38,745 nt of DNA, from assembly GCA_025057455.1 (NCBI GenBank), contig JANWWY010000013.1, positions 1-38,745 of the forward strand, in the 5' to 3' direction. Shown here in pieces: positions 17,464-21,181 of the stretch. This DNA is from Aquificaceae bacterium (GTDB lineage: Bacteria > Aquificota > Aquificia > Aquificales > Aquificaceae). A program made the position numbers and the translations under genes. How positions within the stretch are numbered: the stretch's first letter is position 1; every line of letters begins with the position of its first letter. The notes beneath the pieces are model-generated. The model searched no databases and had not been told where the DNA came from. It worked only from the letters and a program-made list of their open reading frames with translations.

Positions 17464-19491
17464 TTACGCAAATTCTAAGAACTTTAGGGTTTGAGGGTTA
17501 AGCTTATCCCTGTTTTCCCACGCCCAATTTTGAAGCTCCCATAGGTTCACCATAAGGTCAAACCTCCCAGCGCTCGCATTGTATTCCCTCACAAACTGCA
17601 CTATTTTTACCGCTTCTTCTTCCGATAGTCCTCTATGAGCCTTTTCACTTATGTATCTTTCAATCCAAAACTTAACATTTTCATCCCTTATGGAAAGCCC
17701 GAGACTGTCAGCCTTCCTCAGAAGGTTCCAAACCGTATGTATGGGCTCTACCTCTTTCAAGAGCAGATAGAGTTTTAACTTTATGTGTGCCTCAACCCTT
17801 GACCTTATGAGCTGGCTGCCTTCAAAGGGCTTTCCCCGTGCATGAAGGAGTAAATCCTCCAAAAGAAGCTCGTAATTTTCAGTATATTCAATCTCTTGTT
17901 CTAAGTATTGCAAAGCCCAACGGTCCAAAAGCCAGCTAAGTAAGGGTTGTGGCATGCTATCCGCATTAAACTCTCTCAGGTCTTCTACGCTCTCAAACTC
18001 CTCCTCTGTTTGAACATCCTTTATCCAAACCTTCCAGGGCTCAAAGCCCTCCACTCTGTACTGATAACTTCCCAGCTGTCCCCTTTGGGGTATGGCATCG
18101 GAGAGTTCCAAAACCACTATAGATGTTGCCAGATTTTTCTGAGAGAAAACCTGCGGAAGCACCAATTTATGCCATACGCCCGCACCATTACCGTAAATTT
18201 GTAAATTGCTGGGTGCTTCCGATAATACACTCAAAAACTTCTCTTCAATATTTCCGTCTCCCAAAAGGTCAATGGCCCTTTTTGCAAAGAGGAGGTTTTT
18301 AACTGCCTCTATGCCCGATACGTCCGCAAAAAACCAACCATCGGAAGAGAAGGCAAAACTTACATACTTGTAAGCATACAGATGTTTTAGGAGGACTTTT
18401 CTATCCTCTGAGCTTAAGGTTTTTTTTGCATTCCGTTTTATGTAGTCTTCTACAGACCCATCCATCAAAATGTCCACAAAATCAAACAGTGCCTTCTTCT
18501 GGTCATGGGTAAACTCCGCAAGGACATCAAAAAGCCTTTCCTTTACCGCAGACCTTAAGAACTCTAAGGACTCTCTCATAGGATCTCTCCATTTCTGATG
18601 CCAGCCGGGCATTCCTCCCGTAGAACAACCACAGTCTGACCTCCATCTTTCTATACCGTGCGCACAGCTCCAAGAGGTAAACTCGTTTATCTGTGTTTCT
18701 CTTTCGGGTTTTATTAGTTCATAAACATCTTCCAAGGTTTTTATGTTGGGATGGTTTTCAAGCAGGTATGCAAGCCCCATCTCACCAAACTTTTTATGGT
18801 GACCGAAGGTCTCCCCGTCCACCGCTATAAGCGTCAAGCCCTTTCTATCTTTGGTTCTTCTTATTACTTCCTCCATGTTGTTTATTAGTTCTCCAAAGGC
18901 CATACCGTGGGAAAGCTCGCCATCGTAGACGAATATGTCAATGTGTCCCTCAGGAAGGTGGTACCTCAGATAGGTGCCCTTCGATTTAACCTGGTGGGGT
19001 GCCAATATCACATACTTTATGCCATGCTTTACGAGTAAGGATAGGGTTTTTGTGTCTACCGCCAGCTCAGGAAGCCAAAAGCCCCTCGGCTTTCTTCCAA
19101 ACACCTTCTCAAAAGCCCTTATACCCCAAACTATTTGCACTTCCCTGTCTTCTTCTGGGTCAAGGGGTAGTATGGTGTGGTTAAAACCACTGGCTAAGGC
19201 GTTTTTTGCGTGTTCTCTGACTCTTTCCACAAACCAAGGCTTTTCTTTCAAAAGCCAAGACAGTAAACTGTAGGTAAAGTTGAAGGATATTTTTCCGTAG
19301 TTATTAACTACCTTAAACAACTTTCCGTCTTTTACATAATGAGCATAAAGGTTAGGGAGGTATGACTCTCTGAAAATTCTCTCGTTCCAGTTTTCGAAGG
19401 GGTAGGCGGAGGGTTCTATGGGCACAAGCCCCAGGTAAGGGTTTTCTCTTGGTGGTTGATGAAAATGACAGTGTATGCATAGAAAGTTCAT
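17464..19491 (-). CDS. Glycoside hydrolase family 57 protein with DUF3536 tail
   Basis: The 675-residue protein has the GH57 features: the N-terminal CIHCHFHQPPRENPYLG (His7, His9, His11), the nucleophile Glu142 in GFWLPELAVD, and Asp225 in VDGETFGHHKKFGE. A cysteine-bearing stretch WSCAHGIERWRSDCGCSTGG follows near 285-305, and the rest is the DUF3536 domain. GH57 enzymes act on alpha-glucans (amylase, amylopullulanase, branching enzyme), so a role in glycogen-like storage polymer handling is likely, but the specificity cannot be read from the sequence. No signal peptide, so it is cytosolic. The ATG overlaps the accA stop by 4 bases (ATGA). Confidence 0.88.
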   Translation of the reverse strand: MNFLCIHCHFHQPPRENPYLGLVPIEPSAYPFENWNERIFRESYLPNLYAHYVKDGKLFKVVNNYGKISFNFTYSLLSWLLKEKPWFVERVREHAKNALASGFNHTILPLDPEEDREVQIVWGIRAFEKVFGRKPRGFWLPELAVDTKTLSLLVKHGIKYVILAPHQVKSKGTYLRYHLPEGHIDIFVYDGELSHGMAFGELINNMEEVIRRTKDRKGLTLIAVDGETFGHHKKFGEMGLAYLLENHPNIKTLEDVYELIKPERETQINEFTSWSCAHGIERWRSDCGCSTGGMPGWHQKWRDPMRESLEFLRSAVKERLFDVLAEFTHDQKKALFDFVDILMDGSVEDYIKRNAKKTLSSEDRKVLLKHLYAYKYVSFAFSSDGWFFADVSGIEAVKNLLFAKRAIDLLGDGNIEEKFLSVLSEAPSNLQIYGNGAGVWHKLVLPQVFSQKNLATSIVVLELSDAIPQRGQLGSYQYRVEGFEPWKVWIKDVQTEEEFESVEDLREFNADSMPQPLLSWLLDRWALQYLEQEIEYTENYELLLEDLLLHARGKPFEGSQLIRSRVEAHIKLKLYLLLKEVEPIHTVWNLLRKADSLGLSIRDENVKFWIERYISEKAHRGLSEEEAVKIVQFVREYNASAGRFDLMVNLWELQNWAWENRDKLNPQTLKFLEFA

Positions 19492-20438
19492 GCTTCTACG
19501 AAAACTCCCATCTTTTCATATTTTCTAATTCTTTCCTCAACCAGCTGTTCCGCATCCTTACTGAGAAGTTGACGAAGGTGTTTACGTAGAAAGCATTTAA
19601 GTATCCTCGCACTCCTTCGGTGGTCCCAGTGGGAAGCCCCCAGAGGTTCTGGAACTATTTCATCAATAACACCAAGCTTTAGAAGGTCCTTAGCCGTTAG
19701 CTTGAGTGCCCGCGAAGCCTCCTTGAGCTTACTTTGGTCCTTCCACAGTATAGCCGCACAACCCTCGGGGGATATTACTGAGTATATGGCATTTTCCAGC
19801 ATGAGGACCCTGTTGGCAACTCCCAAGGCTAAGGCACCACCAGAGCCCCCCTCCCCTATAACAACCGCTATGGTAGGTACTCTCAGGTAGCTAAACACAT
19901 ACAGACTCTGTGCAATGGCTTCTGACTGTCCCCTCTCTTCCGCACCAATTCCAGGGTAAGCCCCCGGCGTATCTATAAAAGTAATCACGGGCATACGGTA
20001 GCTTTCTGCGAGTTTTGCCACTCTTATGGCTTTTCTGTAGCCCTCTGGATGTGGCATGCCAAAGTTTCTTTCCATCTTCTCCTTTGTTGTCCTACCCTTT
20101 TCCTGTCCTATTACCGCAACGGGCATATGGTCCAAGTAAGCAAAACCGGCCACTATGGACTTGTCATCACCGAAGTATCTGTCTCCATGCAATTCAATGA
20201 AATTTTTAAAGATGAGGCTTACATAATCAAGTGTATGAGGTCTGTGGGGGTGCCTTGCTAATAGGACCTTCTCCCAAGCGTCCAATCTTGAATATATCTC
20301 TTTTGCCTTTTTCCTGAACTCTCTCTGAAGTTTTCTTAAATCCCTTTCCTTTTCCTTATCTCCAAGAGCGTACAGTCTTTTAAACTGTTGCACTTTCTGA
20401 TTTAGCTCTTGGAGCTCTTTTTCAAAGTCCAAGTACAT
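19488..20438 (-). CDS. accA: Acetyl-CoA carboxylase carboxyltransferase alpha subunit
   Basis: The 316-residue protein matches AccA: DFEKELQELNQKVQQFK, HPHRPHTLDYV, FIELHGDRYFGDD, KGRTTKEKMERNFGMPHPEG, FIDTPGAYPGIGAEERGQSE and IGEGGSGGALALGVANRVL. It forms the carboxyltransferase with AccD, which is not in this window, and makes malonyl-CoA for fatty acids. The ATG at 20438 has no Shine-Dalgarno sequence; the minus strand reads TGGTATAAT 7 bases upstream, just past the tRNA-Val 3' end. A longer reading frame runs through the tRNA gene and is rejected. It heads the accA-GH57-pncB-rpoZ-copD-slt group. Confidence 0.97.
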   Translation of the reverse strand: MYLDFEKELQELNQKVQQFKRLYALGDKEKERDLRKLQREFRKKAKEIYSRLDAWEKVLLARHPHRPHTLDYVSLIFKNFIELHGDRYFGDDKSIVAGFAYLDHMPVAVIGQEKGRTTKEKMERNFGMPHPEGYRKAIRVAKLAESYRMPVITFIDTPGAYPGIGAEERGQSEAIAQSLYVFSYLRVPTIAVVIGEGGSGGALALGVANRVLMLENAIYSVISPEGCAAILWKDQSKLKEASRALKLTAKDLLKLGVIDEIVPEPLGASHWDHRRSARILKCFLRKHLRQLLSKDAEQLVEERIRKYEKMGVFVEA

Positions 20439-20445
20439 CTGGAAG

Positions 20446-20454
20446 ATTATACCA
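20446..20454 (-). promoter_or_regulatory. Candidate extended -10 of accA, abutting tRNA-Val
   Basis: The minus strand reads TGGTATAAT, a perfect extended -10 form. It begins at the base right after the encoded CCA of tRNA-Val and ends 7 bases before the accA ATG, so transcription from it would start at the ATG. No good -35 exists in the T-arm region, which is usual for extended -10 promoters. Confidence 0.5.
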
Positions 20455-20530
20455 TGGTAGGCGCGGGCGGATTCGAACCGCCGACCTCTGGCGTGTCGGG
20501 CCAGCGCTCTGCCAGCTGAGCTACGCGCCT
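20455..20530 (-). tRNA. tRNA-Val (GAC anticodon), CCA encoded
   Basis: The minus strand folds as a 76-base tRNA: acceptor AGGCGCG/CGCGCCT (7 pairs), D arm GCTC/GAGC, anticodon stem CTGGC/GCCAG, variable AGGTC, T arm GGCGG-TTCGAAT-CCGCC, discriminator A and an encoded CCA at 20457-20455. The anticodon loop reads CCGACAC, giving anticodon GAC (valine) at the middle of the loop. Position 33 is C in place of the nearly universal U. The gene lies between divergent gmk and co-directional accA, 16 bases before the accA ATG. Confidence 0.93.
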
Positions 20531-20535
20531 TTGTC

Positions 20536-20547
20536 TTATAATTATAA
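20536..20547. promoter_or_regulatory. Palindromic divergent -10 element for gmk and tRNA-Val
   Basis: The 12-base perfect palindrome TTATAATTATAA contains TATAAT on both strands (20537-20542 plus; 20546-20541 minus). On the plus strand it ends 6 bases before the gmk ATG. On the minus strand it ends 10 bases before the tRNA-Val 5' end, placing the tRNA transcript start a few bases upstream. No strong -35 was found on either side. Confidence 0.55.
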
Positions 20548-20548
20548 C

Positions 20549-21181
20549 ATGCTGTTTGTTCTTTCCGCACCTTCTGGAGCTGGAAAAACTACTGTAGCCC
20601 AGCGCCTGCTTAAAACCTGCCCAAAGCTCAAGAGAATAGTTACAGTGACAACAAGACCTAAAAGGGAAGGAGAAGTCCAAGGTGTTGACTATATTTTTAT
20701 GAATCGTGAGGAATTTGAAGTAAAAGTAAGGGAAAACTACTTCTTGGAATATTCTGAGGTTTATGGCAACTACTACGGCACACCTGCAGACCAGGTGGAA
20801 AACAACGAAAGAGAAGATTTAGACTCCCTTTTGGTAATAGATGTGCAAGGTGCAAAGAAGGTAAAAGACTCCTACGGTGAATGCCTTCTCCTCTTTTTGA
20901 TGCCTCCCAGCCTTGAAGAGCTAAGAAGAAGGCTTCTAAGCAGAGGATACGGCATGGAAAACCTTGAACAGAGATTAAAAAAGGCTGAGGAAGAGATAGC
21001 CTGTGCCAGATATTTTGATTACATAATAGTCAATGAGTTTATAGACAAAACAGTAGAGGCTATTCACACCATAGTAATTGCTCAGAGATACAGAAAGGAC
21101 ATTTTCATGAGAAAACCCACCGTAAACGATAAAAAAGTATTAGAGCTTATTCAAAGGGGTGTATGCTCTGCGTTTACGTAA
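20549..21181 (+). CDS. gmk: Guanylate kinase
   Basis: The 210-residue enzyme phosphorylates GMP to GDP. It starts MLFVLSAPSGAGKTTVAQRLL with the P-loop at 7-14, followed by VTVTTRPKREGEVQGVDY (GMP-binding), FLEYSEVYGNYYGTP and VIDVQGAKKVK. The start at 20549 is preferred; the in-frame TTG at 20531 would add six residues lying in the promoter palindrome. No Shine-Dalgarno sequence exists, and TATAAT ends 6 bases before the ATG, so a leaderless mRNA is likely. Confidence 0.96.
   Translation: MLFVLSAPSGAGKTTVAQRLLKTCPKLKRIVTVTTRPKREGEVQGVDYIFMNREEFEVKVRENYFLEYSEVYGNYYGTPADQVENNEREDLDSLLVIDVQGAKKVKDSYGECLLLFLMPPSLEELRRRLLSRGYGMENLEQRLKKAEEEIACARYFDYIIVNEFIDKTVEAIHTIVIAQRYRKDIFMRKPTVNDKKVLELIQRGVCSAFT

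Follow-up and report, generated by a model that had tools for sequence, protein, structure and literature searches.

Bacterial tRNA-Val(GAC) repeatedly carries C33, an anticodon-specific variant that may tune decoding

U33 is taught as a nearly invariant base of tRNA because it makes the U-turn. We found that the tRNA-Val(GAC) gene of an Aquificaceae bacterium carries C33 instead and that the same variant recurs across bacteria in this anticodon class. Taken together, the data indicate a genuine and most likely functional tRNA-Val(GAC) with a natural C33, and we give a probability of about 0.5 to the reading, drawn from sequence comparison, in which this recurrent, anticodon-specific variant most likely tunes decoding.

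RESULTS

A complete tRNA-Val(GAC) gene with C33

The window (the whole stretch of 38,745 nucleotides that was analysed) contains a single tRNA gene, a tRNA-Val(GAC) of 76 bases with encoded CCA on the minus strand (20455 to 20530). Both ARAGORN and Rfam model RF00005 identified it as complete. The Rfam match scored 68.3 bits (gathering score, 29), covered the full length (1-71), and gave a cloverleaf with all stems intact. An anticodon stem of CUGGC/GCCAG encloses the loop C32 C33 G34 A35 C36 A37 C38, in which C33 lies at position 20498 (a g on the plus strand), the anticodon GAC (positions 34 to 36) at 20495 to 20497, and C38, whose position shows the coupling to base 33 described below, at 20493. 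The gene thus lacks the usual U33, a feature that is not strictly defining for a tRNA. A sequence-only reading of this DNA had described C33 in the loop CCGACAC of an otherwise sound tRNA with encoded CCA, and the sequence, ARAGORN, and RF00005 bear this description out. With C33, GAC, and A37, the loop belongs to the recurrent class described below, and its anticodon, GAC rather than CAU, sets it apart from initiator-type C33 tRNAs. Charging with valine by ValRS is predicted from the anticodon.

The genome itself offered a first comparison. Using the Rfam tRNA model and ARAGORN typing, we found 41 tRNA genes. The set is incomplete in lacking Ile(GAU) and Ala(UGC), both of which probably belong to an rRNA operon that is missing from the assembly. 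Forty of the 41 have T33, including both Val(UAC) and Val(CAC); C33 occurs in tRNA-Val(GAC) alone, which is also the only GAC valine tRNA that we found in this genome.

Two protein genes flank the tRNA gene. The start of accA (acetyl-CoA carboxylase carboxyltransferase alpha; 19488 to 20438, minus strand; Pfam PF03255, E 7.3e-139, and translation) lies 16 bases past the 3' end of the tRNA on the same strand, and gmk (guanylate kinase; 20549 to 21181, plus strand; Pfam PF00625, E 2.2e-40, and translation) is divergent. The longest accA open reading frame (19488 to 20570, minus strand) has a GTG start at 20570 and overlaps the whole tRNA gene; the true start is likely the ATG at 20438. Including our own genome, 13 of the 14 genus genomes have the tRNA at 95% identity or more, and one relative (G001) has a 76-base gene that is 100% identical; the fourteenth (G004) gave weak tRNA matches only. 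As a synteny marker, accA adjoins the tRNA gene in 13/13 genus loci, and gmk is in the corresponding place in 12 of them. Without exception, the 13 genus genomes in which the gene was found have C33.

C33 in the phylum and across bacteria

A strict pattern detected C33 tRNA-Val(GAC) in 90 of 136 genomes of the phylum, which we take to be Aquificota. When a relaxed pattern was applied to 28 strict-negative genomes, six more had C33 (two from g9 and four from g11), which brings the total to 96/136. The relaxed pattern also found T33 in 15 genomes, all from one family (f5; e.g., L089) and all with G37 in the loop TTGACGC, a loop that is also common in Bacillota and Actinomycetota. C33 is therefore present in 96 of the 111 phylum genomes that were typed; of the other 25, seven were unmatched by the relaxed pattern and 18 lay outside the relaxed search. 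The sequence-only reading had proposed to look at the same tRNA in related genomes, and these relatives clearly do not all have T. When C was excluded at position 33, the pattern gave one match in the 136 genomes. This was an extra T33 tRNA-Val(GAC) in G042, with the loop TTGACAT, that is cut by the end of contig 1 (L082, 1489 to 1550). G042 also carries a C33 gene; its T33 copy is possibly of different origin or a contamination.

We then scanned the genome collection for C33-GAC-A37, which returned at least 118 stretches, 80 of which were made into loci. Among the matches listed, ARAGORN called 79/80 as genuine C33 tRNA-Val(GAC), and the remaining one was not a tRNA. The loops of these listed matches were TCGACAA (42), TCGACAC (24), TCGACAT (9), CCGACAC (3), and ACGACAT (1). 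With phylum assigned from record titles, they came from at least about 15 bacterial phyla, including Planctomycetota, Bacteroidota, Actinomycetota, Spirochaetota, Bacillota, Pseudomonadota, Campylobacterota, cyanobacteria, and Patescibacteria. A C33 pattern with the anticodon left open was run on the genomes of 40 of the 80 loci, where it covers tRNAs having AGAGC, a purine at 37, and GTTCRA. All 40 rows that it returned were tRNA-Val(GAC); within this reach, C33 was found with no other anticodon in the 40 genomes. The specificity of C33 for tRNA-Val(GAC) and its wide spread in bacteria had been overlooked in the sequence-only reading.

In a survey of five evenly sampled phyla, with base 33 open and a purine at 37, C33 was present in 56/84 matching genomes of Planctomycetota (119 examined), 29/95 of Actinomycetota (119 examined), 3/88 of Bacteroidota (118 examined), 1/59 of Bacillota (119 examined), and 1/137 of Pseudomonadota (150 examined, with the spurious row G253:C3 dropped from the counts). 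These fractions include the seed (center) genome of each search, which was picked for having C33; G172, in the Bacteroidota search, came from the same C33 scan, and the single C33 genomes of Bacillota and Pseudomonadota are the seeds. The pattern may miss genes in the genomes that gave no match (35/119 in Planctomycetota, 24/119 in Actinomycetota, 30/118 in Bacteroidota, 60/119 in Bacillota, and 13/150 in Pseudomonadota). As C33 and T33 both occur inside each of the five phyla, the change to base 33 must have happened repeatedly.

Base 33 is coupled to bases 37 and 38

A hand tally of the survey rows gave gene counts for bases 33, 37, and 38. Over the five phyla, A38 was present in 60 of 93 C33 genes compared to only 2 of 393 T33 genes. 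G37 showed the opposite bias, with 0/93 C33 genes compared to 68/393 T33 genes. The A38 association recurred inside separate phyla, with 43/59 C33 versus 2/30 T33 genes in Planctomycetota (P = 1e-9) and 14/29 versus 0/72 in Actinomycetota (P = 1.5e-9); both P values ignore kinship, and for these two phyla they were also computed without the seeds. The repetition within phyla is a stronger argument than P values of this kind. At the level of whole loops, TCGACAA accounts for 60/93 C33 genes and TTGACAA for 1/393 T33 genes. The two T33 genes with A38 are both from Planctomycetota (TTGACAA in G588 and GTGACAA in G585). The other 33 of 93 C33 genes lack A38, C33 being found with C38 and U38 as well. 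CTGACAC, with U33, was found in 21 Actinomycetota genes.

The tRNA set of the Aquificaceae genome shows a related pattern at position 38. Only Ala(GGC), Gly(GCC), Leu(GAG), Pro(GGG), and Val(GAC) lack A38, which amounts to 5 of 7 tRNAs with G34 that read four-codon boxes versus 0 of 34 others (P = 2.8e-5).

DISCUSSION

How C33 might tune decoding

The distribution of C33, its restriction to one anticodon, and its coupling to bases 37 and 38 are observed; from them we infer a mechanism. According to the accessible part of PMC11194099, bases 32, 33, 37, and 38 influence the efficiency and fidelity of decoding, and the 32-38 pair of a native tRNA is tuned to its anticodon so as to adjust affinity, with tRNA-Ala(GGC) as the worked case. 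Combined with the lack of A38 in the same kind of tRNA in our genome, this leads us to read C33 as a GAC-specific member of the 32/33/37/38 tuning set. In our model, the standard U33...A37 A38 loop would make binding or reading by G34 tRNAs of four-codon boxes too strong, and the loop could be weakened by either of two routes. One would be to avoid A38, by keeping U33 and having a base other than A (U, C, or G) at 38, or else G37. The other would be to replace U33 with C33, which would relax the U-turn and then permit A38. C33 would thereby substitute for, or add to, the non-A38 base of the other G34 four-codon-box tRNAs. On this model the C would be kept at position 33 of the mature RNA, codon reading would be weaker, and selection would have favored both; that tuning goes toward weakening is an assumption.

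Several observations sit awkwardly with this model. The window loop, CCGACAC, already has C38, so C33 is not needed there to permit A38, and C38 is the base that accompanies C33 in this lineage. CTGACAC with U33 is common elsewhere, the two exceptional T33 genes do carry A38, and about a third of the C33 genes (33/93) do without it. Somewhat more tentatively than for the tRNA studied here, and by extension from the comparative counts, we propose for bacteria at large that U33 of elongator tRNA-Val(GAC) has repeatedly been replaced by C33 and that bases 33, 37, and 38 may act as one coupled switch, set either to U33 with a non-A38 base or G37 or to C33 with A38 permitted, which would determine how GUC and GUU are read. 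The U-turn base would then be a natural site of anticodon-specific tuning.

Alternative explanations

Of the three options that the sequence-only reading had left standing, namely, a real variant, a sequencing error, and a C-to-U edited base, the relatives favor the first. An error of sequencing or assembly, or a pseudogene, has nothing in its favor but the unusualness of the variant; the gene lies beside accA in every one of the 13 genus loci, is identical in G001, keeps its stems, is the single GAC valine tRNA found in its genome, and shares C33 with 96/136 phylum genomes. We therefore rejected sequencing error, pseudogene, and an oddity specific to the window, with C33 conserved in relatives and in other phyla. 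Editing of C to U, which is known for tRNA in other systems, would give the mature tRNA a U33 again. A deaminase acting at this one site of one tRNA would have to exist in at least about 15 phyla, and the edited loops would mostly read U32 U33 GAC A37 A38 even though just 2/393 genes that encode U33 have A38. The C33-A38 coupling thus makes editing improbable, though less so than an error. A better case can be made for neutral tolerance, in which C33 would be nearly equal to U33 for anticodon GAC, the base would drift, and the coupling to base 38 would reflect shared ancestry. Among the matches listed, base 38 of the C33 genes is indeed A, C, or U, and one Planctomycetota genome (G574) carries both a C33 gene and a T33 gene. 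To our knowledge, U33 is also not essential for amber suppression in yeast, which we count in favor of tolerance. However, C33 is fixed in the 13 genus genomes with the gene and present in 96/111 typed phylum genomes, the 33-38 coupling recurs within separate phyla, and a general tolerance should have produced C33 with other anticodons, of which the any-anticodon pattern gave none in 40 genomes. We regard neutral tolerance as unlikely, at something like one chance in a handful.

An explanation of about the same standing is that C33 keeps the loop from closing. U33-A37 and U32-A38 would pair across the loop to leave a three-base loop, and C33 would break the U33-A37 pair so that the loop stays open. 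A37 of tRNA-Val(GAC) is not known to carry a bulky modification. In a folding model, bases 33 and 37 of the UUGACAA arms were paired with a probability of 0.67 at 37 C but were never paired in UCGACAA, in keeping with the counts for TTGACAA (1/393 T33 genes) and TCGACAA (60/93 C33 genes). The combination of C33 with G37, which could pair, is likewise missing (0/93), and the accessible part of PMC9654439 describes a U33-A37 intraloop pair that is prevented by t6A. Conversely, TTGACAG is also predicted to be closed (0.56) yet is present in 12 T33 genes, the absence of CTGACAA, which has no 32-38 pair, is left unexplained, and Gly(CCC) of our own genome carries a TT...AA loop. In the same folding model, the window loop CCGACAC is open with either C or U at 33. 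We thus rejected loop closure as a full explanation; as predicted by folding, it may contribute part of the story at most. That C33 tunes decoding remains the reading that we prefer.

We also asked whether C33 might protect the tRNA from tRNA-guanine transglycosylase or from an anticodon nuclease. This idea was dropped, as Phe(GAA) and Leu(GAG) of the same genome, both with G34 A35, keep T33.

Relation to known tRNAs

The C33 gene shares its anticodon, length class, and core with the canonical bacterial U33 tRNA-Val(GAC) (loops TTGACAT, TTGACAC, CTGACAC, and TTGACGC), with which it is homologous across phyla; it differs in having C at 33, with which A38 loop combinations become possible. Natural C33 tRNAs are known from two other settings. 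Eukaryotic initiator tRNA-Met is also a functional tRNA with C33 (PMC9023262, in its accessible part), but it is an initiator, whereas the window tRNA is an elongator for valine. Closer is tRNA-Cys(GCA) of Sulfolobales, which the accessible part of PMC7668247 presents as a natural elongator with C33 and G34. That tRNA is archaeal, has another anticodon, and belongs to one clade, whereas bacterial C33 tRNA-Val(GAC) spans at least about 15 phyla. As a case of an anticodon-specific loop base that adjusts reading by a G34 four-codon-box tRNA, tRNA-Ala(GGC) is the nearest parallel in what is accessible of PMC11194099; it is tuned through the 32-38 pair, while in tRNA-Val(GAC) base 33 itself is altered.

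We found no description of C33 in bacterial tRNA-Val(GAC) in the open literature searched, and an earlier publication may exist. Public tRNA databases contain C33 tRNA-Val(GAC) sequences. A 2007 study by Saks and Conery reportedly compared bacterial tRNA genes by anticodon, as its title says, and may well show C33. With C33 known before from eukaryotic initiator and Sulfolobales cysteine tRNAs, we consider the pattern in bacterial tRNA-Val(GAC) well supported and moderately surprising. One whole anticodon class repeatedly breaks the U33 rule, and it does so in coupling with a base across the loop. For annotators, this means that C33 in a tRNA-Val(GAC) is no sign of an error or a pseudogene. 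The class also supplies natural matched loop pairs with which to ask what U33 actually does. The two genes of Planctomycetota G574, one with C33 (TCGACAA) and one with T33 (TTGACAC), form a natural pair for such a comparison.
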